Shown here piece by piece: positions 13,001 to 60,481 of a DNA stretch of 64,000 bases (positions are counted from its first letter, which is position 1; every line of letters begins with the position of its first letter). The stretch covers positions 75,987,992 through 76,051,991 of the forward strand of contig NC_060253.1 of NCBI RefSeq assembly GCF_921293095.1, read 5' to 3'. A program made the position numbers and the translations under genes. This DNA is from Ischnura elegans. Its lineage: Eukaryota > Arthropoda > Insecta > Odonata > Coenagrionidae. The notes beneath the pieces were generated by a model. It searched no databases. It worked only from the letters and a program-made list of their open reading frames with translations, and was not told the DNA's origin.

Positions 13001-16000
13001 TGCCGAATGCACTATAGTTGTCGACATGGGCGCCGAATACCTTTACGGGAGCCGCGGCGGCCGATCGTCTTCCCACCCGGCGTGCACTGGTCCGAAATCG
13101 GAAAAAGCTGGAATGAAGTCCAAAATGACCTTTTTGGGGATAGAGACTTGAAACTTAGCGTAAATACTCATAAAGTATTACCAGATATAGATTTATATGC
13201 CGTTTTACGTAAATACGACCCTTTAGTGAGATACAGTGGCCCAAACATGACCAATTTTTCAATGCCACGCGAGATATCGTTTTTCCTCAAAAAATCTTTG
13301 AATTTATCCTGGTGGTTTTGCGTTGGTATGAGTTTAATGGAATAAAAAAATGCAATATTCCTTTGACCTGGTGCTTTTCCTATATTTTCAATGACTTTTG
13401 AAGATTTTGGCTCTCATCTGTCTGGTTTTACAACGCAAAATGGCTGACCCGTTTTCACGTGAAATTTGACATAAAGTAGACATTATCTTTCGTTTACGAA
13501 AAATATAACTCGGAAAATTTGAACCACGATACAAAGTAGAGATTTCTAAAGATTACTAAGTAGAAATCTTGGAAAAAAGTTTGCGACGAAGGAAATAAGA
13601 GCGATTTTTCAATCGCGCGTCAAGGCTGACCTACACGCCGCGGACCTCTGAGGCTCGGTAACTGAGGCCGATTTTTCATGTTTTTTAAAATATTAGTCTT
13701 GAAAATCGTCATGTAAAGCATGGATAATCGTCTTACTTGACTTAAAAGACTAAACTGAGGATGTTAAAAAGGATTATGTATAGATCGACGAGACCATTTA
13801 GCGCATTCTTCGAGTGAAAATACTAATGATTGGATATTTTTCGGAACCATCCCACGCGTAAGAAATATGCCTCGGGTATTGAAGTAAAGTGAAGAGTTTA
13901 AGTCAGCATGCATAAGATAGAGAAAAATGAACTGTTTCCGTGAAAGGCAACAACCGATACCCTTTTTCCCTTTCCACCTTCGCCGAGGTGAGTCGTGCGG
14001 AAGGGGCAGTTTTCATATTACAAGGCATCTTTTAGCCTTTTTTATTACTGCATCCGTCCGATGTGATATTCATTTGTAGCGTTTAGTTTCTTTCTTGAAC
14101 TTAAAAAAAGCAAGAGATTTTAACGCTGATTAAGGAGGAACCATCATTTCAAACATGCCCGAAAACCTCCCCTTATTTTGACATATGTTGTTGCTCATTA
14201 TTTTTTCTATCGAATAGTGAAAAAATATTACTATGTCACCGGCCATTTAAGAAAGATTTATGGATTTGAAAATGACGGATTTCCACCTTGAAATACATTG
14301 TCTTTATGGGAGAATGATGACCTTCCCTTGTGAAACATTTTTTATCTCAAATTTGGCCCGAAATTTATCGTTGAAAAATTAGCACAGCATAGAATAGACA
14401 TCGATGCTTAATATATGTATTTTTTTAGAAGGGGTTACCGGTATGTTAGCGCCAGTATTTAAGTTTAAAGAACATACTTCCGGTTTTCTGCAGAGCGAGC
14501 AGCCATTATGCGGCGGAGGTAGTGGCAACGTTGCAAATATACGGAGGTTAACTATGAAGAGCGATATTGCACCTGTCGACCGCTGCATAAATTCAGTGAA
14601 TTGGATTTTTCGGAGTCATTTTTATACGTATTCATTAAACGAATATTCAGTTCATCTCGAAACGTGCTATACACCGAAGTATGAAATTTATCAGTGCTGG
14701 TTGTTAAAGTAATTCCTATATGCGACTACATTTTATTAAACATGCGAATAATCATGACCGAAATTCAATACATCCCTTGAAATTGTCGGCGTATCGCTTC
14801 AAAAGCGAAAATGATAGAATATAATGAGACTTGCGATAGTTTATCTGTTCTTCTGAATACTACTTCAAATTTTTTCACGTTTATTTAGAAAAATATGCAT
14901 CGTTTTCAACTTGTAGAAAATACTTATTTTAATAGAAGTTCTAAGCGTAAAGTAGAAAATCTAGCGCATTATGTATTTAATCATCAGTTTAATTGATATT
15001 AAATGTCTAGAATAAGGTTTACAGGTAAAGGAATATACCACGAGACAAGCATATTGCCGTTGGGTACCGACTATGTAGTATTTGGAAATACAACTTCGCG
15101 AACGTACTAATTAATCAAATACTCACCCATGTAATTCTTCGAAAGTATAAAATAAAATAGACAAGAGTACTTCCTTTTTCACTGACCAAACAATTTACTT
15201 TGATATGTTTTCCAAAGGTCCAATTAGCATAATTTGAAAAAACAACAGTAAATACATTTACCTATTCATGAAGTCATTGCAGGAGGATAAAAATTAGGAT
15301 GCATTCCTGAACAATCGATGGCAGCTGACATAAGTGAGTCCGTAGAAGTTGCAATGCCAGCCTTCCAAATTTACTGAAACTTCGGCACTAGGAACAAGTA
15401 TTATTTAATTATCCTGATACTAATGATTCGAATTACATTTGGGTTATAACTGACACATTAGTTTCTAATTTTCACTAATCAACTCCTTATTAATAGTATG
15501 GATGAGGCTATTGAATGGAAAATCTACAAAGAAATAAACATTAAAGAGCTTTGTGTCAGTCATTCGACAAGGACTTTAATCTTCATAAATCAAGACATAA
15601 ACATTGATTATTTAAACAATGATGGACACTTTATGTTGGGAAATATTGCAAAAATTTCTTAAGAAATTGAAAATGCACGTAAACGATTCGGTATCCTTCA
15701 ACAGATGCACTCGTTGAAATCGCTTCGATGGATTTGATGGATTCACTTTCGGCCACATTTCGTTTCCTCAAATAATCCAAGCTCTTACCTTTACCTTCAG
15801 ACACAAATTTGCCTTTAAATCGGCATAAAGACGCCATCACTTCAGCCCAAAGGTATATTTAATAACTTAAGGCTAAGTAAAAGGGATAATAAAACGAGTA
15901 ATATTGTCACAATGCAACGTAACTCTACGAGGTAACGTAAACAAACAAAGGTGCTCAACCGCTGTGAAACTACGATATGTTGGCAGCGTTGTCAAGTTGG

Positions 16001-19000: not shown

Positions 19001-22000
19001 ATTATGATTATGATTTACTGCATGACATTTTATATTCTGTCACTTGGTAAATATGAAATACATCCATGATGTGATTCATTTAAGTGCTACTAAATTGTTT
19101 TTGAAGGTAATATTTTGAAATTTGTTCATTGAATTGAAGATTAGCCATTCATTCCGACCAACTATACTTTTTTCCAGCCCCCTCAGTCCTTTGAAGAAAG
19201 TGTAGATGATAGTATTGTCCCAAGTACACCAACCCTCTTTGTTCCTCGTCGCACTGATGGGTTTGGAGAAGCTGTTAGTTCACCCCAAGTTCCTACTGCA
19301 AGATTTACCTTTGCTTCCACATCAGACAACCAGCAGCCAGTAGCTGTTGCTCCTGTGTCTGTCACTCCCTCAGCTGCCCGGACAGGTGGGTAGTCTCAGT
19401 TCTTATTTCAGTTAATCCAGGACTTTCATGCCTGTTGTTTGTCATTGTTTGAAGTGTAGTAAAACATTTAGTAGCATATGTATTGCTACTTTGAAATATC
19501 CAAACATTATGTCTATTTATGTAACAATTTACAGTCATAAATGGTCATTGTTGAGTCCATAGTGGAGATAACTGAATGCTTGTTTTTCCAGTTGTTATTG
19601 ATATCGGAAATTTGAGATAAGGTATTCAAGCTATATATGTAATTGGGAACAAGGAATCAAGTGTTGAGCCTATCACATATTTTTCCTAATTAGCTCACAC
19701 GTAACATATTGCATGGTTATTTTTATCTTGCAGGAGGTCTTGCCCAAGTTGCATCGGAAGGTATTGATGACACCAGGATGGATCTCTCCCAACTAGAGGA
19801 GTCAGGCACTGGACGAAGTGTGCCTACCACTCCTTTACAAGTTTCTCCTCAAGGTATTATTCTCATGTGCAATTTCCTGCTAATTGCGATAACTTCTTCT
19901 TTGTGCATCTTACTTGGGTATTTTTAGACTCAGAATTCAGTTAGGGCTGGCTTTCTTGTTAAGAATGTGGCATCAATATGTATGTAAGGCATTTACACTT
20001 ATGTATAACTTAAGTTTCTGAGAAATAGTTGAAAAATGTATTGAAGTTTAAGACCAAAGGAAAAAATTTGCTGTATTAAAAAAATTTACTATCCATCCCC
20101 ATAGCACCGAATCATATCACCCAATTTCTAGTTTTAGGAATGTAAACCTACCTACAGTAGACTCTCGTTTATACGGACAGCTTTATTGCGAATCTTTTTG
20201 TTATTTTGAAATTAAGTCATGGTCCTGACCAAAGGGGTATTGAAGTTTTCATTTGAGGACCCTAGAAGCTAATGGGTACGAGTACAATTTTTTAAATTTT
20301 GTAGATAAGTACAGATTTTTGATTTTGATATTGTTGTGGCAAAGGGATTGAAGTGAATCAGTTAATATGTATATACTTATCTGAGATTCACTTATAGCAC
20401 TTTGCCACATCAGTATTCTAGCTCACCAACCATTATCTGCGCTTATTTATGCGACAAACTCACTTACAAACTTCTTTTTGGGCATATGAAAGAAAATACC
20501 TTATGTATACAGCAAGTAAATAGAATCTTTTGCTCATGCACATCATTCATCATCTGGTATCACGTATTGAGTGTCCTTTGTTTACACTACAAGGTCGAAC
20601 AAAACTCTTTCTTTTCACTCATCAACTCAACAAAACCCTCTTTCTTGGTATTTTCACTCATGTATGAAACTATGTACAAATTCTCTTGTTTTTACTGTTC
20701 TTTAAATGAAGTTGCTATATCCTATGCATAGACAAACATTTTTTCAACATTGCTTTCATCTTTGTCTGATCTCTCCTGCTCTGTTTACTAAGGAGATGCA
20801 ACCCCAGTTGAAATGTCTTCAGAAGTGACCCAGACCGTCAGCAGTCAGTTGGAGGAACAAGAGCAGAGACGTGAGCAGCAAATGTCTTTGGGAGGTCATG
20901 TTGGTGACGGAGAGGGTGCAACATCATCGTCATCGTTAGAAGCTCCCAGCTCAACCAATCGGGAAGAGGGTGGTCTCAACAGTAGTGCGAGTGGGAGTAA
21001 CGTAGGCATCCCATCAATAAGGGTAACAGCTGCTCCAGCGGAGGAGAGTGGTGATATTCAAGTGGAAGGTGGTGTTGGACGGGATGATAGCATAGAAGAG
21101 CTTGGATCTGGCCTACCTCCATCTCAGTCACAGATCTCAGGTTGGTGATTTCTCGAAAGCTATCGTGTATGCATGATTGTGGCCAGAGAATTTTGCTATG
21201 GGCATTATGGGACTGCCCACCCTGTGGCAGAGTCCAAGGAGTAACCCTCTTTAGAAACTGGGGTGTTCCGTCCTTGGCAATTTTTAAAATCCAATCTTCT
21301 CAGAACTTGAATTTTAATTTGTGATGCCATTTCTGTAGAAAACTGAAGTGGATTACTTCAATATGGAAAATAGAAGGCTCTTATTTTTCAACTAGGACTC
21401 ACATTTTCTGAGGGACTATAGTAAACTTAGGGATAGTTATTTGTCAATAAATTAAATGCTCACAACTTCAATATCAGTGTGGCCACCTATATCGTATATG
21501 TCTGAATATAGTCCCCCTTTGTTTCCAAAAATGCCTGTGGTAAAAGTAAAGGGGGGACTATATTCAAATGCATTTTTAATAACTTTTTCCAAAACTGAAG
21601 CCTCAAAATTAGGGGAGAGGGACTGTATTCGGAGAAATATGGTACAGTGGAACCTCGTTAAAGCGAGTATGGGCTATAGCGACACCCCCGCTATTACGAG
21701 AAATAGCTGATGCACCGTCAATTGACCCTATAATAAGCGTGTTAAAGAATTCGTTTTTACGAGACCCTTTCGGTGTTGGCTCTCGCCATAGCGAGGGTTT
21801 TACCGCCGGAAGACTTTCATGAAGACTCCTTAACCTCTGTAATTGCTAGCGATCTGTTAGAAATGAAGTTAATGGAGTGCTCAGTCTCAAATTTATGTGG
21901 TAAACTGTCGTTCGATAAATATAATGATGACGAAACAATGCTTTGCATGATTTTTATTCAGTGCGGCGCTTATAAATTGTTTGAATAGTTAGTCGTTATT

Positions 22001-25000
22001 TGAGTAAGGAAATTTAGTGATGCAAAAAAACATCGCCTTTCGTCTGGATTTATGCTTATGTTTATTGGATAGATGTTTATCTGTCGCCGCACGACTCCTG
22101 TTCCTGTATATCTGTTTGCAACAGGTATATTGGCTATTATTTGCTCCACCTCCGGTAAAGCGACAATTCGCTATAGCGAGTGTTTATTAGTGCACCGTGG
22201 GGTGTCGTTATATCGAGGTTTCACTGTACATATTTCCATTTGCCAATTTTTTTTAAGGTAGGGGTGTAAGCCTTCCTGGGGGCTCAGGCTCCCCCACCCT
22301 CTCTCAGGGCCTCTCTGGCTATGCCCATGTTTGATTGCCATTCTTGAATTTGATTAGGCAATGTATGGCTAGTTTTTGTGGGTTGCCCTTTATTTTCATA
22401 AATGACTCATTTTGAGGGCTACCAAATAGTTCTTCTGCCAACAATCCCTTCCTGGTTCATCTGCTAATTCTTACTTCTTTCTTAGCTACCGTTTTGTGGA
22501 CTTCTATCCCCCACCTCTTCCTTGCCTCCATACTTACTCCCACCTCTCCATTTCTAATGACACACGGCCCTTCCTACCCTTCTATTTCCCTTCCTGCTCT
22601 TCTCCACCCCTTTGGCCTTCCCGTTTCCTTGGTTCTTTCCCCATTGTCTCTACAGGTATGACTGGAGTCATCCTTCCACCCCTGGTTCTCCCCTTATCTC
22701 TTAAGTTGAATGTTTCTTTCAATCTCTCCACTGTACGCCTGTTTCCTACCCCTTCCTCAAACATGTTTTACAGTGTCTAGTACCTGCGGATGGCTCCGTG
22801 AGCCAAAACGCATCGTACGCATTAAATTCTTGCGGAAAAGTGCAAATTCATATTATTTCAATATGCTACAGAGTAGTGTTAATATTGCTTTACTCAAGTT
22901 GGTCTCAATGTATTTGCCTGTAAATTTTTTAAAATCATCTTTGAGATGATGTGCATTTCAGGGGGGTCTGTTTGGAAGGTATCACTTAAATGTGTATCTG
23001 TAAAATTTCAAGGCAATTTGGACTTCTTGTTCCCTACCCATTACTGATTTGGTATATCTCTGTACAGTTAAGTCTTATTGATTAATCATGCAAAAGTGTG
23101 AAAAGTCGTAACATAGATTTTTAATTCTTGTCATCAACTAATACTAACTGTTAAAAAATTTGTATCTTTCTTTTGCAATTACAGAAGGTGATGATCAGTC
23201 ACGTGAAGCCTCAGGTGGTGAACATGATGATGACCTTGGAGAAGGCAGTGAAGGTGAGTTTTTTTTAGAAAATGCTTAATTCTATATTCTGGTCAATGAT
23301 TGTTCTGTAGAGGAAAATCTTGTATGTAGCTACAAAATTTACCAAAATATGTAGTAAGGCTAAGCCTGGTGAGCAACCTGTTGAAACCCCTAATGAGTGA
23401 AGGGAAGAGATGGGGGCATCTCCATTAAGTTTTTCATGAATTACTGGAAAACTGTGACACGTGGCAAAATAGTGCAAAAATTCAATGTTGAAGTGGACAA
23501 AATTTACTGCATGTACAGTCCGAAGTATTTTTTTGGCAAAATTAATAGTCATGAATTACTGAAGATTTGGATTTTGCAGTTTCAAATATCATATGATATT
23601 AGTGTTGAATCAATGTTAATTATAAAAAAAATCTTCAGACTGACTGAAAACAATTTTCTCGAAGGCACACTGACGTCAAGTATTATGATAACTCCAGGTG
23701 TATTGTCAAGCACTTCTGTATAATGCAAATTACCTCTCAGTAAATACATAATTTTCATCTGCTGTCATATGTATATTAATGCTTTCTCTGTTTTCCTTAG
23801 CACTCATCTTCAAGCTATCTTAAATCATCATTTTACCATCCTGACATTGAAATTATTTATTTTATCCATAGGAGTAAAAAGTATAATTTTATAATTCGAA
23901 AGTAATTTATGACATTGTTTTTTTCATGGGCTAAAACTTAACTGGTGACAGGATCACAGAAAAGTTACTTATTTGCTCTTTTTGGGAGGGAAGCTTCATT
24001 GTTCAAAGTAATTTGTCACTTTTGTTTTATAGATTGTATTTAATTTTTCCAGGTGGTGTTCAAGAAGTGACACCATCTTCATCTGGCAGTGATACGCCCA
24101 ATGCCAGGGGAACTTGGCGGGGTCAGCAAACAGCCCGGCGCAGTGGTGGTGTGGCACGCCGCTCCACTCGCGTTGGCTTCAACCGAAGACAAGAAAGTAT
24201 TCGTCCCGTTCCTATCGTGTGGAGTGAGCCCAGCCATGGGGAAAGCTCATTTAGAGGAGGTAGGAGGACTAGGACTAGGAGGTATTGTATTGTGCTTTTT
24301 CTGTTTCCTCACATACCTAGATTATTTGCTATTAACTTGCTGCTAATCTATTTTAGTGCTTTACTAATTATGCTAACGACTTTATTTCCAACCAACGAAA
24401 TGGCTTCCGACATATTTAAACATGAGGGGTGTTGATAATATTTATTGGCTTTGCTGAGTTGGTTTCGTAGTACCAGAATCGAGAGCACTCTTGCATGAAG
24501 TATGTATGTATCTTTTGTTGCCATTTCAGTGGCTCTTGTAAATTTGACCTAGAAATTAAATGATTACTTCAAGACCACTCTTTTCAATAACTAAGAAATG
24601 TCTAGGAGGCATGGAGGCATATATGTACAAGTGCAGTATGTAGTTAGAATTATTACGCAGCATGCATATAGATGATCACGTTTCAACAAGCAATAACATG
24701 AAAGAGTTTCTTGTAACTTGTTTCTACAATACTAGAATATCTCAAATTTCGAATACCTCGAATACTAGAATTGCACAAAGCATATTTAATGTTATTCGTC
24801 TATTTCACTTGATGAATGTATATGTAAAAAGGTATAAAGTAGACTCTCGTTATTACGAAGCAAATTGTAGGTCCTGACCAAAAGGCCTATCCAAGCTATA
24901 GTATAAGAAACGTTATTACGAAATCTTCATTTTTACGAAATTATGAACCTCAGTCCCGGCCCCGGCGGTTATAAAATGAAGTTTTTAATAAAGTTCCACG

Positions 25001-36000: not shown

Positions 36001-39000
36001 GAAACCAAAGAATGAATGGCCATGCAATGAAACATGTTAAATATGAGAATGGATTTATATCAATAAATATCTCTTTGCCAACTTCAAATGATGCATTGAC
36101 ATATGTGAATACCTGACCCGAGCATCCGTTCACAAATTTTGTAGTAAAAAATTCCAAAGAAGTCTGTGATGCTGTGTAAAGAAAATTTCATAACAATCCT
36201 ATATCCTCGAGAAAATATTGCTTTGCTGCAGATAATATGACTGTAAAGGGAAGTATGTTTTACTTTTTTATTGCTGCCTTTCATGAGGACATCCTGTATC
36301 ATCATTGTAAACATTCAAATGCATAGTTGAAAAACGAAACAAAAACTCTCTAGTTTCAAAATGGCGGAAACAGGAAAATGTTAAACGTGATATGAATGAA
36401 AACACTTAAAATACAATGAAACGTAGAGAAACTAGCATTTGGATGGCCAAAAGACATGAAAATCAATTCTTTGCTTACGAAGACCATTGACGCCAATGTT
36501 AACAGAATTTCGCGATCATTTCAGATATCTTGAATGGAAATTCTAGAAAATAATCACATAAATAACCTAAGAACTTAATAATTAGCTTGTATTCAAAATC
36601 AATGTATATGATGCCAACCTGTTCAACCACTTACTGAGCTGTAATAATCACATAATCATAAAAATTTCCTCGGTAATATAACAACCAGTAGAGTTCAACT
36701 GCAGAGTTTAAGCAATGGGTCATCTCCATCAATACTGACTCGATATATTTTTAGGGAAAAAAGGCATATTACGTGTCTGGTTATTTCTTGAAATGCGCCT
36801 GTTTGCTGCTGCGTTCTCACCAAAAAATTAGTTCCTATTCATTTCCGTAACACAAATATCTTCATATTTCAACTTTAACAACAGCCGGTGCGGCCATATT
36901 TATTCATCCGTAAAGGACACTTTAGCCCTAAAGTGAGCTCCGGTTGGGCACTTTATGGTAATTCATGGTTAAATAAAAACACAGTACTATTCCACAACCT
37001 TATATTTTTGCAGTCTACTAGTTTCAACGTTACAACGTCATTATCAAGACTAACTGAGAAAAGCATACAACATCCAGCCTTATTTATCCAACAATAGTGT
37101 GAGGGAAGGAGGAGGGGGGGAACTAAATGAGAAGGAGCATTGAGCATTGTTGGTTGGATAGGAGGTTCAAAACAAAAAGTATAAAAGTTTGGGGAGGTGG
37201 GGTGGGGGCAGGCAGATAAAAGTCAGGTGGTAACGAGGTTAATGAGAAGGGGAGGAGAAAGGATTGTCAAGGAAGAAGTCAGATTTTAAAACAGTAGATA
37301 AAAAGTTAGAACATTTGAATACAGTCATATCATTAAAAATTTCGATGTTACGTGCAAGAGTGCATTTGGTGATTTCTAAAATATCCAGTTTTACCCTTTT
37401 GTCATGTACATGTAAAATTTTAATATTAAAATCACTGTTGTGGCCGGATTCGGACAGGTGTTTAGAAAAGTGGGAAATGGAGTCTTTCAAACGAGCACTT
37501 CTTTTGTGTTCATCGACACGAGTTTTAAACTTGCGGCCCGTTTGACCAACGTACACACCGTTGCACTCGTCGCATGTCAGGGCATAGACACCACTTTTGT
37601 CTTCAGGATTCACTTTGTCCTTGGAGTTAAAAATCACTTTACCAAGGGAGGTCGGGGAGTAAAAACACACTCTGTATTTGTCTTTGGGTATGAGGTTGTG
37701 AACACTGTAAGACAGGGGGCCAAGGAAAGGTAATTTGCACCACCGTTTGGGTTCTGTTTTGGGGACCGGCAGCAAACTGGTTAGGGTGGGCGATACTCTT
37801 ATTCGGGTTTTTTTTGCCAGTAATTTACGGATGAGGTCATCATGATAGCCGTTATTAGAACATATCGATTTAATAACATCAAGTTCCTGGTTGAAACTTG
37901 AAGCAGTCATTGGTATACAAAGGAGTCTGTTTAGCATAGAGTTAATGCCTGCAATCTTGTGGGAGTAAGGATGGTTTGAGTCTGCAGGGATAAGTACATC
38001 CGTAAAGGTACTTTTCCGGTAGATTGAGAAGTCATGTTTGCCTTCTTTGAGGGAAATCGTAAGATCTAGGAAGTGGATTGAGTCACCTCCGAGTTCAGTT
38101 GTAAAATTGCTGGATCGGTGGAGGGAATTGAGTAGCCCAAGGAAGGAGGCCAGCTGTCTCTTGCTACCGGTCCATAAGCAAATAATGTCATCCACATATC
38201 TAAAGTAGTAGCACAAGTTTTTTAAAAGAGGGTGATGAGAGCTGAACAGTTTACTTTCCAGGTTATCCATAAAGATATCAGCCAGGATAGGCGAGAGAGG
38301 AGAGCCCATAGAGAGACCGTGGTTTTGTCTATAAAACTGGTGATTGAATTGAAAATAATTTTGGTCCATGCACACTGATAATAGTTTTACACTCATACGG
38401 TCCCTCTCAGGTTTCAAGCCTACGCACAGCATTGAAAATTCCTCTGAGCTAGCAAAACGTCTTTCAACAATAACCCCCCCACCAAATGGAAAACTGGTAC
38501 ATATCATTTGATGTTTCCAACCTTTTTACCTCCGTACCTGCCAAAGAAGCCATAGATATAACTCTAGATTGGCTCAGAAAATCATCCGTCAATGACGACT
38601 TAGTGAGTGACTTCAAAAAACTATTTGAAAATAATTTTGGTCCATGCACACTGATAATGCCCGGCTAAAATATACTTTAGCCTAAAGTGCTGTCTGTGAA
38701 TCGCATCCTTAGACTATGAAACATCAAATAATGACAAAAGGGTTACATTTTTTGGGCACACAACCTTTTTTTTCTATCCAAGCAGGCAAAAAGCCATGAA
38801 TTTTATTTTAATGGGTGGTGTTTCCTACCTTTGAGATTGTTAGGAGAGAAAAAATAAATTTATAACATATTGATTTTTGTCTCTATTTGATATTTCATTG
38901 AACCATGTTTTTTGCATAAAATTTTCTAAAATATTTTGCTACAAAAGGTTTTGAAAATGTTAAATATCTATGACGTAATTTCTGTATTAATATGTGAAAC

Positions 39001-48000: not shown

Positions 48001-51000
48001 TTTCAATGCAGTACTATTGGAAATTAGATGGTTAAAAAGTTTATTGTTTTTAGCATATTTTGTCTCCATGTGTAATATTACTACTTATTTCTTTTCAAGG
48101 GAAAAATGGTGCTTTCCTTGGCAAAGGAACCCTCTGCACGTCTCCTGAAGCATGTTGTGCGTTGTTATTTGCGACTCTCGGATAATCCTAGGTAAGTAAT
48201 ATCTAATATGCTCCTTTAAATAAAATAATGTTTTTCCAAGTTCTTTATCTTATGTTAATATTTTTATTAGGGATGTTACCTTTGAATAGTATAATCTAGG
48301 GATGAGTCGATTCCACTTTTTTTCGATTCCGATTCCAATTTCGATTCCTTCAAATCGATTCCCGATTCTCGATTCCGATTCCATCGATTCTTGTACATTC
48401 TAACTGGTGGGATTTTGATTTATCTGTAGCATCGCTGTCATTAAAATTTAAGAATTGAATGGAATAAAATAACTAGGGATGGACAGATCCAGGATTTTTG
48501 GAGCGAGATCTTTCGAATCGGATATTTTCGAATCCAAATGCATTTTCAAATTCCTGCCATTAAACAAAGTCATTATTCGTTTATTGTGGGTACATACAAT
48601 CAATGGAATGCTTCTTAGATTTTCATTCACATTCTAATATTTTTATAACTTAAAAATTATTTTATGGGCTTTCAAGTTGTTTTTTAAAAACATCTTCACA
48701 TACTCAGGGCCTAAACTGTTACGCTTGGGTTTGGAAATGAAAATAGAAAAAATCTTAGGATGAACCACTGACCAGTGGCGTAGCGAGAGGAATATAAATA
48801 TAAAAAACACAATTACTTTCCTTCATAAAAGGAAACAAAATATTTAAAAATCATGAATTTACAAAAATGAAAAAAATGACTCTTTGAAAAATGAAGTTTT
48901 TCTATTATGAAGGGCGTTAAAATTAGTTTGAAACCCTCTCCTTTGTACCCTGTTGTTTAAAAATTTTCCCCTGGTTTTGGATCCCCCCTTAACAAAATTC
49001 CTGGGTACCCCCCTGCCATCGACTGAATTCCAATTTTCCTCATGCACGTTTCCCCCGAATTTTACTTTCTCATCACTTACGGACTTGTGTTTCATCCGAA
49101 AATGCTTTAGTATGGTGAGGTCATTGGTTCTCCTTATCTCAGGGGAAATGTTTACACGCAATACATTTTTATCGGCGTATCATTAAATTGAATTGCAACT
49201 GTGCAATTAGCAACACAATTAACTGTATTTAAAACGGCATTAACGTCATGTGTGACGAGGTGCTCAACCGCTTAGCATGAGGAAGAAGTGGGCAGCAGAA
49301 GCACGTAAAGGAGAGGTGGAGGGGTGGCGTAGCCAGGAATTTCGTTCGGGGGGGATTCAAAACCAGGGGGGAAATTTAAAAAAAAAACCGGGCGCTAAAT
49401 AATGGGTTTTAAACTAATTTTAACACTTTTTATAATCGAAAAACTTAATTTGCTAAAGAAAAATTTTGTAAATTCCTGATTTTTCAATAATTTGTTTTCT
49501 TTTGTGAAGGACAATACAGTGCAACCTCGATATAACGACACCCCACGGTGCACTAATAAACACTCGCTATAGCGAATTGTCGCTTTACCGGATGTGGAGC
49601 AAATAATAGCCAATATACCTGTTGCGAACAGATATACAGGAACAGGAGTGGTGCTGCGACAGATAAACATCTATCCGATAAACGTAAGCATAAATCCAGA
49701 TGAAAGGCGATGTTTTTTTGCATCACTAAATTTCCTTACACAAATAACGACTAACTATTCAAACAATTTATAAGCGCCGCACTGAATAAAAATCATGCAA
49801 AGCATTGTTTTGTCAATCATTATATTTATCGAACGACAGTTTACCACATAAATTTGAGACTGAGCACTCCATTAACTTCATTTTTAACAGATCGCTAGCA
49901 GTTACAGAGGTTAAGGAGTCTTGATGAAAGTTTTCCGGCGGTGAAACCCTCGCTATGGCGAGAGCCAACGCCGAAAGGGTCTCGTAAAAACGAATTTTTT
50001 AACACGCTTATTATAGGGTCAATTGACGGTGCATCGGCTATCTCTCGTTATAGCGGGGGTGTCGCTATAGCCCGTACTCGCTTTAACGAGGTTCCACTGT
50101 AACTGTGTTTTTATATTTCGGGGGGTGAGGTCCGGACCATCCCCATGGCTACGCCACTGGGAAGGAGCACGTGAAGGAGAGGTGGAGAGGAAGGAGCCCG
50201 CTCCCTCCGTATTTCAAACAACAAGGCATCAAATGAGGGAGTCGGACGAAGAAATCAGATCTTACTTCAGTGACGTCGTTGCCTTCAAAGCGAAGCCGGG
50301 CACGCTACGTGATATATGTAGTTGGCGTTTCCAATCCGTCTCTAGTTGTTTGAGGGGTTAATGCTGCGCTTGTTTCTTTGAAAATTATGCTGTTTGGACA
50401 ATCAGTAAAGTGTAATTGTAGAATTGTAGATAGAAAACTGAGTGGCAATCAATTAGAGCTGAAAAATAAACAGAAATATCGTCAGGAATGCGTCTCGTTT
50501 GGTCTAATTCTTTTTTAAATCCCGTGCATATCATCTAATTGTCGAGGCTATCAAGATATCTTCGGGCCCAAAAAGTCACTCTTCTAGCATCTGTCGTCTA
50601 GAAACAGAGAATTGAAGCAGGTAGGCCAAAAAAGGTCAGTTGGTGAGGCGAGTTAGGGATGAAACACGCTTCAATTGTTTTCATGTGATTTGATATTTTC
50701 CTTAGAAGACAATGATTTTTGGTCCGTGTGATTTCGGATACAAAAAAAAACAACAGAGGCACGGGCTGGTGGACGGCCGAAGGTGGTTTTCTGAAATCTG
50801 CGACGTAGTTACTTTTGACGTGGTTATTATCCTACGGCGCTGAAATTCCTCCGATGATTGTTCAATCTCTTGGGAAGAGTCACACTATGTGCCAGTCGTA
50901 TTTTGCCTTTTTTATTTTCTGGCTGAAAATCCTAGCCACGGCTGAAATTCTTCTCGCAACCTCTGCGAGAGCTTTCAAACAAAATGGTTCATGAGTAGGA

Positions 51001-54000
51001 CAAGAATCGCATGCGACGACGCATTCGAAGAGAGAATCGGAACTCTTTCCACCCTGATGGGGCGTTGCATTCACTGAATCTATTATTTAAAATTTCGGAT
51101 CCAGATCCGATGTCTTCCGCGACTTTGGATCCGATGTATCCGATGAAGGGCAATATCCGCGGATATTTGGATCCGAGGTATCCGATCCGACCATCCCTAA
51201 AAATAACAATAGCCGCGGTGGCTACATTCTCGTTTGGCCGCGGTGGCTAAACAAGAATGTAGCATTCATTGCGTCCATACACACTAGAGCAGCCTGGCGG
51301 GTGCGCGGTGGCGGCCGAACGCAACCTGTCGAGTCCGCCCGGAGGCCGCGGCGGCTTATGCCAAGCAAGTATCAACTTCCTCAAGGGTTGCATTGATGAC
51401 ACTGGGCTATACAAACGCGAATATGTCTAATTTTTTTATTATTGACGCAGACGCGTGTTAGTCTAAAAAAGTTACGTATACAAAAAAACCCGCTCTCAGC
51501 GCGTATTTATAAGAAACTTTTTTCACAGGAAAACTCGCTCTCTGCACGTTTTTATTATCAGCAGACTTCAAATATCATTCGAAAATTAAAAAATATATAT
51601 TTCGATCTATTATACTTTAAAATTGGTGGTCGAGATGAATTCTCCGAATGTGATTCATAATCGCAATACTTTGATTTGCCGTGACCAGCGGCTAATAAAA
51701 GAACGGAAAGCGCATGCATTGCTTCCCGATCCCGAGGTTTCCAATTTTTTTTTCTCTTAGAGTTGCTCATGATCACGCGCCATTTCAGGGTTCGTCGGTT
51801 TGTCGCTCTTGCCGACTTTTTCATGTTTCCGAGGCCGCTTAGGTATGTTAGTCGCAGCACCCGCGTGACGGGCGTATCCTCCGCGCGGGCAAGGCTGACA
51901 CCGCGGCCGCTTAGATGTGTGGCAGCCTTTGTGCCCCAAACTTATAGTCTATGCTCAAAACATTTATCTTCCTGGAATCGATGGAATCGGAATCGACTTT
52001 AGGCGATCGATTCTCGATTCCGATTCCGTGCCCGAGAATCGGTGGAATCGAGAATCGACATTTGGAATCGACTCATCCCTAGTATAATCAAATACCTCAA
52101 ATAATGAGCTTTTTACACTATTCAATATTCAATGACTCAAATTTATCAATTATTTGAATTTCGAATGCACAGCACATATTGTCCTTGATTCTAATTAAAT
52201 CCGTTGGCTATGGTTGGGTCTTACATGAAAGTTTCCACTCTAGGTTAGTTAAATTCTTTAATACTACTTCTAAAAATACCTATCACTAAATTAATCATAA
52301 AGACATATGTATAATGCTGATGATTCTACGAGAACAACATTAAGATGAATGCATGTGTACTTTCAAATGTACGCGACATTGGCTTTTCCTTTTACGGCAC
52401 CCTGTTGCATAGCAAAATTTATGTTTTACAAATTCTAATTTTAAAGTATTTGTCAATTCTTAATTTCATTTAAGGTTTGCAATAAATGCAGTGAAGCATA
52501 ATTTATAATATACAGGCATCCCCCGAGTTACGTAAGAGATGCGTTCCGGCAGACTGCGTAAGTCGAAATTTACGTAAGTCGAACCTTTGCGTTAGTGCTT
52601 CAGAGATTGCGATCGGCGAGGTGAAATTCTCAGCGGAGAAATGCGCGGTAATTTCTCGGTGAAGTTTCATTCAGTTCACTGCGATATTCATTAACTCTAC
52701 CGCGTATTCTTACGTTAATAGATACAAAATTGGTAAACATTAATATAGTCTGAGAGTTGAATCTCGAGCATTGCCAATCAAAATGCGTAATATTATTCCC
52801 AGAGTTGACCGATCGCGTGGATTCGGGAAAGTACGGTATCTCAACGCTACATTACTTAACTGAATACAAATTTGATTCATTATGTTATACTGCGATCCAA
52901 GGGCCCAAAGAATGCATCGTCTACCTACCTATAATCATTATATCTTCTGCCTTTTATATATTACGTTGATCGATGAATCTGGTGGTTTCACTGTCACAGT
53001 TAATACACGTAGGAGTGTCTAGAATTACGAGCAAATAACACACAAAAAATACCAGTAAATTACTTTATTCTTAGATACATTCACACGCACATACACTCAA
53101 TCTTTCACGCATGGAAACATACTTTCATTCTCTCATATCTCAATAAAAAACTTGAAAATATCATCATTTGAATATATGCATCGCTGGAAACATCGAAGAG
53201 TATTTCCAAAGCACGAAGCTAATTAAAAGTGAGCTTTTATTCAGCCAACTCCGTCATTAACGTGCAACAAAGTTGGTGGGGAAAAGCTTTTAATGACGCA
53301 ATATTCATTTACAGTTGCACACAAAATGAGAGAAAGAGAAAATGCAGCTTAATAAAATTTTCCGCCAGAAACATGTAAACAATTGCGCAATTAATATCGT
53401 GTGTCAACTTTTTCTTAACTTTTTCGCGGCGTTAATTGCTAACACTCAAAATTTCAATGCCGTTACGTGGGTACTAAACAATTCTTTTCCACCATAAAGA
53501 TTTCTGCTTGAACTTCATTTTCTTTTAATTCCACAGATGGAAATGTCCAAACTTAAGGATACAATTTTTAAATAGTTGAAAGTCGCAGTTCGGGTGTGCA
53601 TGCTGTATAACAAGTTGTATCGTATAGGAATGAGCGCAACCAAATCCATCGCTAGAACTGCAAATTTTCACGTTGATTGCTGACTTGGGATTTATAAGCG
53701 ATTTTTCTACAGAAATTGATGAAAATTCCTTCGAGGAATGACAAAAATGGGTCACATTGTTATTTTTAGTGCGTAAAAAACTCGATAACTATTCGATATT
53801 TTTTCTACCATAGGTTGTACGAGCGAATATCTACTTCTTCGCGCTCTCATTCGAAAATTAACGTAATCATTTGAAATACGGATATCGCTTACGTAAGTAC
53901 GGATTTACGTAAGTCGAGACATACGTAACTCGGGGGATGCCTGTATGCTTATAATATGTGAATATAACTTTCAAGATGTGTATAGTAAAAAACAAAAGAA

Positions 54001-57000
54001 TAACAGTTCTCGCCAGGTGCGCAAGTTTGATGTAATCGTGGATGACAGCACAGACATAATTCAGGAGAGGTATTGAAGTAGAATGACTTGCAAAGTGTTC
54101 AGCATTCTTTATTTTTTTTTGCCGTTTGTATTTCAAACTGGTGGAAAAATGCATTTTCAGTATTCAGTAATGCAGTATTCAATATTTGAGTGAATTTTCG
54201 GGAAAAAATTAGTTATTCGTATTCGATATTCATATTTGAGAAAAAAGCTATTCGACCCATCTCTAATTTTCATGAATGGGCCTTGGAAAAGACAGGGTAA
54301 GGCCTCGGGTACGATACGAGCGGCACGTGAGCGGCAGGGGTGGCTACAATACAAGCGGCAATTTTCTAACCGCTCAGGTTTCTCACCTTTTCTAACTTCA
54401 GTCTTCCTTTGTTTGGCCGTATTTTCACTACTTTGATGTTTCTCTGCTCACATTTTCAACTACACTGAAGGATGAATCTACTGAGCGGTGAGTGGCAGTG
54501 GAAAAGAAATCGGTCTGGACTTCGAACCATGAGTGGCACTGGGCGGCGCCGCTCAAACATATCGCACCCACCCTCAATGGATTTACACGCAACTAAATGA
54601 GGACCGATATCAGAGCGGCGCCGCTCGTATCGTACCCGGGGCCTAAGGCAGGGGACGAGAATGTGGTGCAATGATAACTGGAGAAATAAACAGCTTGTTT
54701 GATTCAGAGTCCTTTTGAAATTTGCTTCCTCAGGTGGTTTGATAATACAACTGGTAGCGTTGTCGACAAGAAATGAGGACACTAGGATTCAAATTCTGGT
54801 CATGTTAGATTTCATTTTTTGGTGTTAATACATAAATGGATCTGCAATACTTGTATATGACTCTTTCCAGGTAGTTTTTAGCTTATTTACCTTGGAGTGA
54901 TAAGCTTTTTCCACTTACGCAAGTTTAAATGGTTGAAACGTAGATCTTCACTAACTCCTGTATGCATTCATTTATTTTGATTTTTTTTTGGATGTGAAAG
55001 AGATGTAGTTGATCAATTACCAGAATCATGGAAAAGCAGTTTATTGTCAATTACATTCTTACCTAAAAGTTGGGGAATGGAATCATCTTTTATGAGGACA
55101 TTACATTTTTCCTCAAAAATGCCTTGGTGATGAGATAATTGATTATTTTTGCCCGGATTGATAGATTTGATTGACAGATTTGTGGCAGTTGTAGTTTGTA
55201 ATGGTGGTTTTGCTACCACTTTCAAAAGTTTACTCATTTAAGTGGAAAACAAAACCTAAGTATCCGTTGCGTTGTCCATAAAAATGCATAACTGAGCAGA
55301 GTAAGATACAGTGGATGTGCGGTTTATGGAGTACAGCAATTTGCGAGAATCATATTTTAGCGAGTGATAGTCTTTGTAGTGGCAGACGGCCTATGTGTTA
55401 CATGTAAAATAAATCGGATTTAGTGAGGTCAAAAAGTTCCTTCCACAGTTAATGCTCGGTATTATGGCAGATATTTCTCGAGGGCAATGCACTACTGAGC
55501 AAGCATTAATTATTGTTTTGTATTATCTGTTTATTAAACTAAAAATACAAGATGTGTGTCATATCTACAACGCATAAAGCCAATTATGCTCAAGCATTTA
55601 TGTGATTTACGGCCTTGAGTATGCTCTGTGAGCTCCCATTTTAGGTTCTTCTTTTGTTAGGCTCAGTTATCAGTGGGAAGGAAATGGGAGGAAGATGACA
55701 GTGGGAGTTATTTCCCCCCCATCCCCCTTGGTTGGTTTCGTCACTATAATAATATTATAGGATAGGCTAAGTGTTAGAACTTACTTGTGTTGAAACCCCC
55801 TCCATATTTTTCCGCTATAAGTATGGAAGTTGAAAGTGCAATATTGTCATAGTTAAATTGGCACCCTTACATTGAATTTCCACTAATGGAAAGCTAGAGA
55901 AACGTTACCTGCCGTTGTATGCTATCCGGCGATGTATATTTTGATATTTCAAATATGCATAGGAATGTAGTTCGATCAAGACATTGTCAGCTATTGCCAT
56001 GTAGTAAAATCACAATTATTACCAAGATGGTAAAACAACAATCAACCTTAGCTTAGCAAGCGAGGACTCAGCACCGCCGAGTAATCAACTATAAAACAAA
56101 TTTGTAAAAGCCGAGTTACTCTGTTGATAGTAGAAATCCTCTTCTTAGCAAGCATCAGCAAAACTTTGACGCACTTCTGTGCAATCCCTTAAATTTCTTT
56201 AAACAAATGGCTTAATTTAGATGTGGGTTACCCTCAAGGGCTATGTACTATGAGAGTGCATGACTCCTGTGTCAAAAATAATATTTTGCTCCGAATTTTG
56301 CGACACAGCATATGCTTTTTCACTAATCCATTCCCACGAGGTGCTTTTATCGTAGGTATGGAAACAGCCCAGGGATTTGGAGAACTGAAGATTTTTGAAC
56401 CACCAAAACAAAGGGTTGTTCCTTTGAGTCCTTGAAGGTCATCGTCCCTTACGGTTTCCTTCTTCACGGGAGCATTCTGTTTACATGTATTGTGGGCGTT
56501 TCCCTTTCTTACCTGGCAACCTTACCCCCTACCCCGGAATAGGCCCTTCTGCCTGTCATGTCTGATGTATTCGCAAAATTATCCAAAAACTTCCGCCGCA
56601 TACCAAACATATTGATTCAGACTCGTTGCACTGTTTTTACAGTTTTATTCTGCATTAAAAAATGCAAGAAAAGTAATAAAATCGCCGAAACACCGTAACT
56701 TGGGTAATTAATATATTATAAAATTGTACATCTGCCATTTATTTCTTTAAATGTGTTGTTACTCAACTACAGTAGAACCGCATTAAAGCGTATACGGGCT
56801 AATCAATCCAATCCTATTCCTATATGAGTGTTGACTATGGGTTTATTGACTCTTATTTACTCCACCTCCGGTAAAACGACAACTCGCCGTAGCGAGAGTT
56901 TATTTGAGCACCGTGGGGTCTTGTTTTATCGAGGTTGCACTGTAGATTGTGCCTGATAATGACTCTTTGGATGATTAACTTCGTTAAATACCGCAGAAAC

Positions 57001-60000: not shown

Positions 60001-60481
60001 TGTGTCTTTAGGCTTTGCCTAGGATTTGAACCTCAGTCAGCAGTTCAACGCTCTGCTTTATGGCCACTATGCTCTCTAATTCGACTGAACATCTTCATAT
60101 TTGTTGGAAAATGTGGATTCAAGTTAATTTGGAATTTCAATGCATAAACCTTGATAGTATATGGAAAAGAGCCTGGATACAACTCTAGTTTTTTGTGCTA
60201 AAATTTTAGATGTCATGCACATAGAATCCTCCCCTGTATTTATTTCTGGTGTCAATCCATTTGTTATCTCTAATGAGAGGAATTCTTTTATTACTAGGGC
60301 TCGTGAAGCATTGAGGCAATGCCTGCCAGACCAACTGAAGGACAGCACATTTGCAGGATGTTTGACAGATGATAAATCAACTAAGCATTGGCTGTCGCAG
60401 CTGCTAAAGAATTTGGAGACTGCAGGACCTGGTGTTGGCACTGACCCACGTGTCGGCATTTCTCCTCTTGCTGTCCAGTAG
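32891..60481 (+). CDS. CNOT9 (Rcd-1): CCR4-NOT subunit 9 (CNOT9/Rcd-1), complete, 5 exons (gene span)
   Basis: This gene encodes the armadillo-repeat subunit of the CCR4-NOT deadenylase complex. It binds the NOT1 scaffold and docks GW182-type and other tryptophan-containing partners, recruiting the complex to mRNAs; that is family knowledge. Five exons (32891-33009, 45334-45649, 46319-46513, 48100-48191, 60298-60481) total 906 nt and give 301 residues, against about 299 in vertebrates. The product is collinear with the family: [20 protein letters not shown], then [80 protein letters not shown] and [11 protein letters not shown]. Only the termini and a few positions are variable. An in-frame TAG at 32882 precedes the ATG. 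Introns 1 and 4 (each about 12 kb) are packed with mobile DNA, while the coding sequence is intact. Confidence 0.98.
35157..35405 (+). repeat. Duplicated block, copy 1 (with flank)
   Basis: About 245 bp, beginning aagtcctcagaaatgttgaa, recurs at 42569-42820 with few differences. The block includes about 55 bp outside the Harbinger-like TIR plus the first 190 bp of the element. It is therefore not a simple second insertion of that element. Confidence 0.85.
37239..38390 (-). pseudogene. PLE reverse transcriptase (C half) + GIY-YIG endonuclease
   Basis: About 383 codons are open on the minus strand. Reverse transcriptase motifs are visible in order: [17 protein letters not shown] (motif B), [12 protein letters not shown] (catalytic YVDD) and [12 protein letters not shown] linker follows, then a GIY-YIG nuclease with [20 protein letters not shown] and [11 protein letters not shown]; the C-terminus contains [13 protein letters not shown]. 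This combination defines Penelope-like elements, which prime on target DNA with their own nuclease. The N-terminal half, including catalytic motif A, is missing from this frame and lies inverted upstream. The open frame beyond 38390 (to 38507) is a chance antisense reading of that inverted piece. Confidence 0.92.
38384..38625 (+). pseudogene. Inverted PLE reverse transcriptase segment (motif A)
   Basis: The + strand codes for the missing part of the same reverse transcriptase. One frame gives [20 protein letters not shown]. After a one-base shift the next gives [20 protein letters not shown], carrying catalytic motif A (FDV), then VSDFKKLF. It should lie on the minus strand directly upstream of 38390. 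The segment is bounded by 34-bp direct repeats (38349-38382 and 38625-38658). Confidence 0.85.
38709..39440. other. Unassigned intronic stretch
   Basis: This AT-rich stretch between the Harbinger-like element and the DDE transposase relic shows no gene, clear repeat or TIR by eye. Confidence 0.4.
39447..40387 (-). pseudogene. Decayed DDE transposase (insect DDE-endonuclease type)
   Basis: The minus strand starts [20 protein letters not shown], continues with [32 protein letters not shown] and [20 protein letters not shown], then WINVG. After frame changes come [40 protein letters not shown] and [10 protein letters not shown]. The order matches a large insect family annotated as DDE superfamily endonuclease: HTH start, YLDESW, HAG..GF, VVDNASYH. 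Here the first catalytic Asp (D-E-S/T-W) is replaced by Gly (TGESW), at least one nonsense codon and several shifts occur, and the expected third acidic motif is not found. Flanking TIRs were not identified. It is clearly a relic. Confidence 0.65.
42320..42545 (+). repeat. tRNA-derived SINE, copy 2
   Basis: A B-box-like word, ggtttaagtcctggc, is followed by agtggcagaaacttttcgga and gatggccgtatccctgcttg. This parallels 31790-31500 on the other strand. The head resembles a tRNA-derived promoter; the tail is unclear. Confidence 0.55.
42569..42820 (+). repeat. Duplicated block, copy 2
   Basis: This copy matches 35157-35405 from aagtcctcagaaatgttgaa to the word gctgcgaaaaagtgaa, where homology stops abruptly. 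It includes the left Harbinger-like TIR and its outer flank, but no right end is present. Confidence 0.85.
43974..44040. mobile_element. Partial copy of the hAT-like MITE at 8209
   Basis: CAGTGGCGCAGC is followed by ggggttttgggggataaaac and ccccctagtcttaattccta. This matches both end regions of the 8209-8498 element with the middle missing. No target duplication was found. Confidence 0.55.
45334..45649 (+). CDS. CNOT9 (Rcd-1): CNOT9 exon 2 (ARM repeats 1-3)
   Basis: This 316-nt exon runs from tttacattgcag to aaa|gtaagt. It encodes [20 protein letters not shown] through [11 protein letters not shown], nearly identical to the family. It forms the first armadillo repeats, whose concave surface is basic and reported to bind nucleic acid. 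The exon ends in phase 0. Confidence 0.98.
45650..46318. other. CNOT9 intron 2
   Basis: This short AT-rich intron contains no recognised element. It is the only CNOT9 intron without visible mobile DNA. Confidence 0.5.
46319..46513 (+). CDS. CNOT9 (Rcd-1): CNOT9 exon 3 (ARM repeats 4-5)
   Basis: This 195-nt exon, phase 0 at both ends, runs from ctttatag to a consensus gtgagt. It encodes [20 protein letters not shown] through [11 protein letters not shown]. This is the region that carries the tryptophan-pocket and NOT1-facing helices in the known structure. Confidence 0.98.
46514..48099. other. CNOT9 intron 3
   Basis: The intron is mostly occupied by the decayed mariner at about 46.9-48.05 kb. 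The initial 400 bp shows nothing recognisable. Confidence 0.5.
46925..48050 (-). pseudogene. Heavily decayed mariner transposon
   Basis: The left end gagggtcgttcaggaagaaa resembles a mariner TIR. The minus strand retains scrambled mariner transposase blocks: [16 protein letters not shown] (the DETWIHHY region), [16 protein letters not shown] followed by KFYFSDG, and a final ELKGD / VEK-like end. Many stops and shifts occur, and the right TIR was not found. It differs from the 9004-10355 mariner and is much older. It fills most of CNOT9 intron 3. Confidence 0.65.
48100..48191 (+). CDS. CNOT9 (Rcd-1): CNOT9 exon 4
   Basis: This 92-nt exon runs from a polypyrimidine acceptor (cttttcaag) to ag|gtaagt. 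It encodes [20 protein letters not shown] and [11 protein letters not shown], with the final Arg codon split across intron 4. The nested-hAT region begins only 77 bp downstream of this exon. Confidence 0.98.
49322..50160. mobile_element. CAGTGGCGTAGC-type MITE, interrupted
   Basis: gtggcgtagccaggaatttc at 49324 and the inverted ggctacgccactg at 50147-50159 look like paired ends, with G-runs just inside. The pogo-like MITE copy 2 is inserted in it. Its flanks repeat agcacgtraaggagaggtgg on both sides. A second possible left end, ccagtggcgtagc, lies at 48772. Confidence 0.5.
49517..50099 (-). mobile_element. pogo/Tigger-like MITE, copy 2
   Basis: This 583-bp element is the inverted counterpart of 21645-22226. 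TA flanks both ends (49515-49516 and 50100-50101), and the ends are CAGTGCAACCTCGATATAAC and CTTTAACGAGGTTCCACTG. Internal words such as gcaccgtcaattgaccctat (on the minus strand) are shared. High similarity to copy 1 suggests recent spread. Confidence 0.87.
50160..51058 (+). repeat. Dispersed repeat, copy 2 (shared with 1790-2636)
   Basis: This segment resembles 1790-2636 over about 0.85 kb, ending at the shared word atcggaactcttt. Here it lies inside the inner hAT element, whereas copy 1 lies in a TA-flanked TIR element. Confidence 0.7.
52513..53943. mobile_element. pogo/Tigger-like element, 1.43 kb
   Basis: The TIRs read CAGGCATCCCCCGAGTTACG at 52513 and its inverse, CGTAACTCGGGGGATGCCTG, ending at 53943. 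TA flanks both ends (52511-52512 and 53944-53945). Subterminal words acgtaagtcga repeat at both ends. No pogo transposase is present. About 330 bp of the interior matches the Harbinger-like element in the other orientation. It is inserted in the right part of the outer hAT. Confidence 0.9.
53140..53470 (-). repeat. Shared internal cassette (matches 35362-35690)
   Basis: Read on the minus strand, this segment aligns with 35362-35690. It begins ggcattgaaattttgagtgt and passes through gcagcttaataaaa-complement and ctcttcgatgtttccagcga. Homology stops short of both TIR systems. Confidence 0.82.
54301..54643. mobile_element. PIF/Harbinger-type MITE, GC-rich
   Basis: This 343-bp element has 24-bp inverted ends (GGCCTCGGGTACGATACGAG, continuing CGGC, and its inverse). 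TAA flanks both sides (54298-54300 and 54644-54646). GG-starting TIRs and a TAA duplication fit PIF/Harbinger. It is noticeably GC-rich (gagcggc words) compared with its surroundings. It lies 35 bp beyond the outer hAT. Confidence 0.82.
54644..56769. other. Unassigned part of CNOT9 intron 4
   Basis: AT-rich sequence with no gene. Words such as tttatggagtacagcaattt near 55.32 kb recall pogo-like element interiors, but no ends were found. Confidence 0.35.
56770..56942 (+). mobile_element. pogo/Tigger-like MITE, copy 3 (internally deleted)
   Basis: Only 173 bp remain. The ends are CAGTAGAACCGCATTAAAGC and TATCGAGGTTGCACTG, with TA on both sides (56768-56769 and 56943-56944). The right half (ccggtaaaacgacaactcgc) matches copies 1 and 2. 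The central 400 bp are missing. Confidence 0.75.
57223..57640. mobile_element. hAT left end, truncated
   Basis: TAGAGATGGGTCGGTTCCGG opens a stretch of ggttc/gaacc subterminal words. Inside, gagttgctc and gtcggtttgtcgctcttgcc match 51757-51810 in the middle hAT. It is thus another member of the same TIR family. No right end was found; the end coordinate is approximate. Confidence 0.55.
58250..58740 (+). pseudogene. Non-LTR retrotransposon reverse transcriptase fragment
   Basis: Three + frames together give [20 protein letters not shown] and [13 protein letters not shown] (motif A), [20 protein letters not shown] (motif B), [10 protein letters not shown] (the FADD box with the second Asp replaced by Asn) and [15 protein letters not shown]. 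Stops and frameshifts interrupt it, and the catalytic box is altered. The family is a LINE of the Jockey/CR1-like type; the exact clade is not certain. Neither a 5' ORF nor a 3' tail was found. Confidence 0.88.
60005..60080 (-). repeat. tRNA-like sequence (SINE head or tRNA pseudogene)
   Basis: On the minus strand a perfect Pol III B-box, ggttcaaatcc (60022-60032), lies downstream of tagtggccataaagcagagc, an A-box-like part, and gttgaactgctgac. The spacing is tRNA-like, but I could not fold a proper acceptor stem. It sits about 220 bp before CNOT9 exon 5. Confidence 0.45.
60298..60481 (+). CDS. CNOT9 (Rcd-1): CNOT9 exon 5 (stop codon)
   Basis: This 184-nt exon follows tattactag and ends at TAG (60479-60481). 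It encodes [20 protein letters not shown], then a family-typical [17 protein letters not shown], and a variable end terminating [12 protein letters not shown]. The last dozen residues differ from vertebrates, as is common for this protein. Confidence 0.97.

Follow-up and report, generated by a model that had tools for sequence, protein, structure and literature searches.

A hAT-in-hAT composite family and its nested copy in an intron of CNOT9

How did three hAT-type elements come to lie one inside another within a single intron, and can the order of their arrival be read directly from the locus, as the first-pass annotation proposed? Here, we examine the nest within the 64-kb stretch of DNA that was analyzed (hereafter the window) and compare it with copies of its components elsewhere in the genome.

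Three nested end pairs and the element that hosts them

The window was scanned for YARRGRTG left ends with a mirror-image right end at a distance of under 12 kb. Of the 67 candidate pairs, three were flanked by an 8-bp repeat with no more than one mismatch, and the scan thus recovered, at identical coordinates, the three nested elements already reported. The nest lies in the CNOT9 intron that precedes the exon at 60296..60400, and the features concerned are as follows.

48115..48194, forward strand: CNOT9 (Rcd-1) exon upstream of the nest, by PDB sequence match (E 2.7e-14)
48260..48267, no strand: left target duplication of level 1 (ATTTTTAT), one mismatch against the right copy
48268..54265, forward strand: level 1, an old non-autonomous hAT-type element, recognized by its ends, its octamer and relatives that share the ends without the inserts
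48289..48296, no strand: left target duplication of the composite (GTATAATC), made in level 1
48297..52081, forward strand: composite of levels 2 and 3, established from 40 fetched copies and the window
48466..48473, no strand: left target duplication of level 3 (AAAATAAC), inherited; inner left junction with at most one mismatch in 41/41 copies
48474..51199, forward strand: level 3, a second hAT-type element fossilized inside level 2; both ends recur in a separate ~450-bp family
49517..50099, forward strand: pogo-like element in TA, present in no other composite read
51200..51207, no strand: right target duplication of level 3 (AAAATAAC), inherited, in 36/41 copies; a single AAAATAAC in L052 and L053
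52082..52089, no strand: right target duplication of the composite (GTATAATC)
52513..53943, forward strand: Pogo/Tigger-like element, inserted at a TA of level 1; its inverted repeats are perfect, with 25-nt arms including flanking bases
54266..54273, no strand: right target duplication of level 1 (ATTTTCAT)
60296..60400 (approximate bounds), forward strand: next exon found downstream, by translation, which we take to be a CNOT9 exon and probably the last

The ends of all three elements are of the TAGRGATG type, and over their first 16 bases they agree at 16 positions in level 2, 14 in level 3 and 9 in level 1. Ends of the YARNG type are characteristic of hAT elements; the nested elements have short terminal inverted repeats of this kind, and the 8-bp target duplications of the hAT superfamily were found in the composite and in relatives of levels 1-3, which upholds the original assignment of the ends to hAT. 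The duplications of the nest are exact at levels 2 and 3 and carry a mismatch at level 1. No exact octamer pair arose in 300 dinucleotide shuffles, in agreement with the claim that these are real target duplications, nor at any of ten offsets of the left octamer. Pairs within one mismatch appeared in 12 of the 300 shuffles and once each at offsets +20 and +30; because of these controls, the window alone supports levels 2 and 3 but not level 1.

Level 1 is rescued as an element by its relatives, which share its ends and one of which (L063) has an exact CTAAAAAT duplication. Among the best 40 scored matches 23 begin at query base 1 (that is, 48268), and the predicted right end, 54265, is reached by 5 of the 11 fetched relatives (L061-L071). 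Level 1 therefore also exists as an independent family. In the window copy the two inserts are the composite and a pogo-like element, and without them it measures ~730-770 bp. The site of the composite is empty, in a one-piece alignment, in 35 of the 39 other level-1 matches among the best 40 scored, and the insertion of level 2 into level 1 that had been proposed is thereby confirmed.

The composite and its outer ends

Levels 2 and 3 form a composite of ~3.2 kb, the pogo-like insert excluded. Composite loci were sighted at 53 places, of which 41 were read (40 fetched copies and the window). Each DNA search scored only its best 40 candidates, here the best 40 of 1332 ranked by similarity to the window copy, with a query that extended 7 bases into level 3; both the extension and the ranking favored composites among the matches. 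In each of the 41, level 3 interrupts level 2 at an identical base. The outer duplication is exact in 39 of them and different in every one; L020 has an outer octamer with one mismatch and L017 no matching octamer (5 mismatches). Inner and outer sequences that always travel together, an observation that the first-pass annotation had set against its own account, were thus found for levels 2 and 3 in every copy read (41/41), but not for level 1.

The inner left junction is kept in all 41 composites and the inner right one in 36. Of the remaining five, L039 has lost the octamer through a 23-bp deletion, and L009, L018, L038 and L045 share a common deletion that removes the inner right end. These four cluster in the tree, and their outer duplications are exact and different; since they moved without the inner right end, the outer ends must be those used. 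Such use is seen in 41 of 41 copies read, all found by similarity to the composite, and the inner right end is dispensable in one subfamily.

Relatives, ages and the history of the nest

Level 2 is also found without its guest. When level 2 was joined across the site of level 3 and used as query, the best 40 scored matches all crossed the junction, and none lay at any of the composite loci sighted. The nine such copies that were fetched all run through the insertion site, and L052 and L053 carry AAAATAAC once only; where both ends were read (n = 4), the flanking octamer was exact in L058 and had one mismatch in L054, two in L053 and three in L056. Level 3 likewise exists as an independent family: a 446-bp element that shares its ends gave 40 scored matches, L064 itself included. 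Both flanks were read in 10 of the 39 others, and the octamers were exact in five, with one mismatch in three, two in one and five in one.

Divergence from consensus at non-CpG sites was 1.20% for the level-2 parts and 1.26% for the level-3 parts in 39 of the 41 composites (L019 and L042, which have extra insertions, were left out); the level-2 arms on either side are thus no older than level 3 (Wilcoxon p = 0.48). It had been predicted that ages would fall in nesting order. This was so for level 1 (mean 11.1%, 12 sequences), for level-2 copies lacking level 3 (5.6%) and for the composite (~1.3%), but not for level 3, which is as old as its surrounding arms. Every young copy among the matches examined is a composite, and every level-2 copy that lacks the insert is older, matching the window copy at 92% at most across the full joined query and at 95% at most across part of it.

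The same inner base, the different outer duplications, the equal divergence and the uninterrupted older level-2 copies together establish that level 3 inserted a single time, at another place in the genome, and that the composite was then amplified. With a common inner junction, different outer flanks and older copies that lack the insert, as expected of a composite MITE, this is a clear and fairly young hAT-in-hAT family. The full insertion order is consequently not legible at the locus, since the AAAATAAC duplication arose a single time, in an ancestral copy at another site, and was inherited. A nested target duplication by itself neither dates nor places an insertion; levels 2 and 3 came as one package, and to annotate them as two hAT insertions would double-count one burst and could suggest a false target preference.

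A genuine preference of hAT elements for the subterminal region of other hAT elements is possible but unlikely. Three insertions do fall less than 200 bp from a left end: level 3 at 177 bp in level 2, the composite at 29 bp in level 1 and L012 at 106 bp in an element related to the one at 12576 in the window. However, as a raw count, just 2 of the 41 composite insertions (the window and L012) are near a hAT end; in L041 sequence related to the 12576 element is ~345 bp from the insertion, an approximate position. Among the 41 loci, with left flanks read over 17-330 bp, both hAT ends with a duplication were found around the composite at the window locus only.

It is very improbable that the three elements inserted here independently in the order 1, 2, 3. 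Nested octamer pairs in one place, two of them exact and one nearly so, would suit such a series, but the identical position of level 3 in all 41 copies at unrelated places, and its equality in age with the level-2 part, rule out its independent insertion here; for level 2 inside level 1 independent insertion holds. Still less credible is an undivided origin of levels 2 and 3, with the inner ends as subterminal repeats internal to a single element. Every composite read has both parts, and the two sets of ends are related, both starting TAGGGATG; but this origin fails to account for the inner octamer repeat or for level-3-type elements elsewhere that share these ends but have different target duplications, and it is ruled out by the empty sites of the older level-2 copies, L052 and L053 among them. 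Segmental duplication of a single nested block, without transposition, is the least tenable origin of the copies, for although inner and outer parts occur together in each copy, there are 39 different exact outer duplications, and the flanks of the 41, when compared, gave only 4 matching pairs (50-205 bp, 81-86% identity) and so rule it out.

We consider it very probable that level 3 entered level 2 once, that the composite was amplified by its outer ends and that one copy reached level 1 in the CNOT9 intron. Level 2, a non-autonomous hAT element of ~1.05 kb, was invaded a single time, 177 bp from its left end, with the AAAATAAC duplication as the result. The composite, one hAT end pair within another, was mobilized by the outer pair and multiplied, presumably cut and pasted by a hAT transposase supplied from another locus; one copy entered the old level-1 element, and a pogo-like element later entered that copy. 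It is a rather doubtful proposal that level 3, by inserting beside the left end, supplied a declining level-2 family with fresh sequence for transposase binding and thereby set off the composite burst; if true, a mobile element would have been rejuvenated through invasion by a relative.

Transposase, known systems and later passengers

The hAT dimerization domain (PF05699) gave 150 scored matches of 1723 candidates in the genome, some in open frames of 520-660 aa, which points to many hAT transposase-like genes. The TAGGGATG-type end was absent from three 450-bp 3' flanks of such genes (two of one family), and in these three flanks no transposase-like gene could be tied to TAGGGATGAGTCGATTCC-type ends. 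Pfam gave no match for ten open frames in the nest, of 20 listed, or for seven in or overlapping the 12576-17512 element. The octamers of the composites have T at position 2 in 28/39 and A at position 7 in 28/39, with both (nTnnnnAn) in 21/39; nnnTAnnn, the target of the Buster branch, fits 15/39.

The 8-bp duplications and the short inverted repeats resemble those of Hermes-type hAT elements (PMC10368747 and PMC2803484), and a leaning of the duplications towards T2/A7 may be shared as well. Hermes requires ~220 bp at each end (PMC10368747); unlike it, level 2 has a left arm interrupted at 177 bp, and no transposase domain was found in the ten open frames of the nest compared with Pfam. In the mammalian MER6/MER6A, a SINE inserted into a Tc1/mariner-derived MITE and the composite spread as a new family (PMC6887750). 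Here too a non-autonomous DNA transposon was invaded by a mobile element and the composite spread; in contrast to a SINE in a MITE, this is a hAT in a hAT, and its related ends form two pairs, one nested in the other. The AgaP2-P12MITE of Anopheles gambiae is a composite with one end from each of two P-element subfamilies (PMC1562414). It is likewise a composite non-autonomous element of two related sources with 8-bp duplications, but the family described here retains the two ends of each element, one pair enclosed by the other. Having two compatible end pairs, this family offers a natural experiment on the choice that a hAT transposase makes between them.

Pogo-like elements had been placed at two levels of the nest, and both proved to be TA-flanked insertions, with TA duplications and matching inverted ends, whose sites are empty in relatives; the pogo/Tigger family name is our presumption for both. 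The element at 52513-53943 is missing from 7 of 11 level-1 relatives in one-piece alignments, and the alignments of the other 4 are broken or partial. The site of the element at 49517-50099 is empty in 34 of the 34 fetched composites that keep it (17/20 by reading and 17/20 by alignment), 6 of the 40 being without the surrounding sequence, and a 96% copy of this element occurs at 21643-22228.

The nest and its setting

The host genome measures 1.72 Gb, and in it the window occupies C8:75987992-76051991, C8 being our handle for one of the genome sequences. Three nested hAT-type elements are housed there in an intron of CNOT9/Rcd-1.

48115-48194, CNOT9 exon (PDB match to CNOT9, E 2.7e-14)
48268-54265, level 1, the outer element
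48297-52081, level 2
48474-51199, level 3
49517-50099, pogo-like element inside level 3
52513-53943, pogo/Tigger-like element in level 1
near 60311, next downstream exon found, read by translation

An exon further upstream gives a Pfam Rcd1 match at 1.7e-51. Judging from the protein's known end, we take the exon near 60311 to be the final one of CNOT9; the intron bearing the nest is probably the last.

The three nested TAGRGATG-type end pairs with 8-bp flanking repeats are present where the first-pass annotation had placed them, and an end-pair scan found no others in the window. That two exact octamer pairs are unlikely by chance, as had also been claimed, was upheld: 67 candidate end pairs in the window include two with an exact octamer and one more with at most one mismatch, and 300 dinucleotide shuffles gave no exact pair and a pair with at most one mismatch in 12 (shifted-octamer controls on the real sequence, 2 of 10). 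Levels 2 and 3 are thus supported by the window alone; for level 1, relatives beyond the window were needed.

Levels 2 and 3 as a single travelling unit

Levels 2 and 3 travel together as one composite. When the level-1/level-2 left end was used as query (best 40 of 1332 candidates scored), the matches began at the predicted level-2 boundary or as much as about 20 bases ahead of it, and extended into level 3; with the level-3 left end (best 40 of 1319), 27 matches adjoined those of the first query and 13 were new. Pooled, the two queries sighted at least 53 distinct loci, window included. Forty of the 52 non-window loci were fetched and, together with the window, all 41 have the composite structure; the earlier reading of level 3 as a separate local insertion fails, since it lies at one and the same base of level 2 in every copy read. 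The outer octamers are exact in 39 of 41 composites, every one different (one mismatch at locus L020, five at L017). The inner left junction is kept with at most one mismatch in 41 of 41 and the inner right junction in 36. Four loci that cluster in the tree (L009, L018, L038 and L045) share a deletion of 51101-51371, which shows that the inner right end is dispensable for movement; at L039 a 23-bp deletion removed the octamer at this junction. The window copy clusters with L011 and L012. A stretch of 53 bp at 49120 is missing from this trio, and three additional composites have lost it within a larger deletion.

Composite non-autonomous elements are already known, and this hAT-in-hAT element with both end pairs is a further case. 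MER6 likewise spread as a non-autonomous composite after one element had entered another (PMC6887750). The related Anopheles P MITE has mixed ends (PMC1562414), whereas the present composite retains both pairs. A bolder reading, that the invading level-3 ends revived the host level-2 element, strikes us as improbable.

The separate families and the order of events

Solo copies or empty sites, for which the first-pass annotation had proposed a search, turned up for each level. With level 1 joined as query (best 40 of 199 candidates scored, window among them), 35 of the 39 non-window matches align unbroken across the composite's insertion point. These relatives share 78-85% identity with the window copy; five of L061-L071 reach the predicted right end, and the duplication at L063 is exact. 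When both sides of the level-3 insertion were joined (best 40 of 1350 scored), all 40 matches spanned the junction at 83-95% identity, and none fell at any composite locus seen. Level-2 copies without level 3 are uninterrupted in nine of nine read, with AAAATAAC present once at the junction in L052 and L053; where both ends were read (n = 4), the duplication is exact at L058 and has 1-3 mismatches in the other three. A young uninterrupted copy would be expected at the top of this ranking and is absent; these 40 matches therefore include no composite that has cleanly lost level 3. Elements with level-3 ends also occur independently of level 2. Locus L064, a level-1 locus, contains one of 446 bp, with octamers GTTTTTGA and GTTTTAAA that disagree at two bases; used as query (best 40 of 2767 scored, itself included), it gave mostly full-length matches of 88-100% identity. 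The flanks of ten other such copies carry an octamer that is exact in five, with one mismatch in three, two in one and five in one. Recurring with other octamers, level-3 ends mark a family of their own; among the copies read, every long level-3 copy sits within level 2.

Divergence from consensus averages 11.1% for level 1 (12 sequences), is 5.6% for uninterrupted level-2 copies and, with the majority consensus of 39 composites as reference, averages 1.26% for the level-2 part and 1.43% for the level-3 part, values that likely underestimate whole families because best-matching copies were used. Without CpG sites the values for the two parts are 1.20% and 1.26% (39 composites; Wilcoxon p = 0.48); they are of equal age, a single event. 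Two older composites, L026 and L049, are 4-6% diverged. The ages predicted from nesting order therefore hold for levels 1 and 2, and level 3 is as old as the level-2 part around it; similarly, of the proposed insertion order, level 2 inside level 1 stands, and level 3 predates arrival at the locus. By divergence, the level-1 family is the oldest and the level-2 family next; a single level-2 copy was invaded by level 3, the resulting composite multiplied, and one composite inserted into level 1 within the CNOT9 intron, the window composite afterwards receiving the pogo-like element 49517-50099. At some stage the pogo/Tigger-like element also joined level 1. Pogo-like passengers at two nest levels, as first annotated, are confirmed by relatives without them: all 34 of the fetched composites that retain the 49517-50099 site have it unoccupied, and 52513-53943 is missing from 7 of 11 level-1 relatives. 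The former has a second copy at 21643-22228 (-), 96% identical, and a partial third at 56768-56944.

Transposition, target choice and neighbouring elements

Composite octamers have T at position 2 in 28 of 39, A at position 7 in 28 and both in 21. The 8-bp duplications and short inverted repeats agree with hAT transposition as known from Hermes (PMC10368747, PMC2803484), and the T2/A7 enrichment may do so too. Pfam recognised no protein domain in ten open frames from the nest, so the transposase is most likely supplied in trans; genes resembling hAT transposases are plentiful in the genome (hAT dimerisation domain, best 150 of 1723 candidates), and three 450-bp flanks of such genes, two of one family, contained no matching end. 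Ten matches to this domain, each in a 129-aa open frame, score an identical 75.2 bits; they lie at C6:91.47-91.75 Mb, C9:4.46-4.89 Mb and C15:8.68 Mb in the genome, and nine of the ten form two runs at spacings of about 60-200 kb.

Two of the 41 composites have landed inside a different hAT element, at distances of 29 and 106 bp from the left end of that element, and level 3 sits 177 bp from the level-2 left end; at L041 related hAT sequence is about 345 bp away, its exact position ambiguous. These cases, picked after the fact, hint at a possible preference for hAT subterminal DNA. At 12576-17512 lies one more element, whose hAT-type ends (TAGTGATGGGTCG... / ...CGACCCATCACTA) are related and whose flanking octamers (ATAAATAT / ATAATATT) match imperfectly; its longer open frames have no Pfam domains, and the target of the L012 composite is its 94% relative over 692 bp.

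A repeat with GGCGTAGCC-type ends occurs inside level 3 as two inverted copies (48772-49020 and 49325-50160), the second with a 28-bp direct repeat on both sides (49297-49324, 50163-50190; 89%); a 70% relative at 1797-2633 apparently has a single copy of the 28-bp site. As a target duplication this would be unusually long for an inverted-end element. Elsewhere in the window are:

9102-10076 (-), two adjacent open frames encoding a mariner-type transposase (Pfam Transposase_1)
37239-38525 (-), 428-aa open frame
54301-54643, small element bounded by inverted arms of 25 nt (GGCCTCGGGTACGATACGAGCGGC), with TAA flanking both sides

The small element is presumably PIF/Harbinger-like, and the 428-aa frame looks to us like a reverse transcriptase with a GIY-YIG-like stretch after it, the layout of a Penelope-like element.
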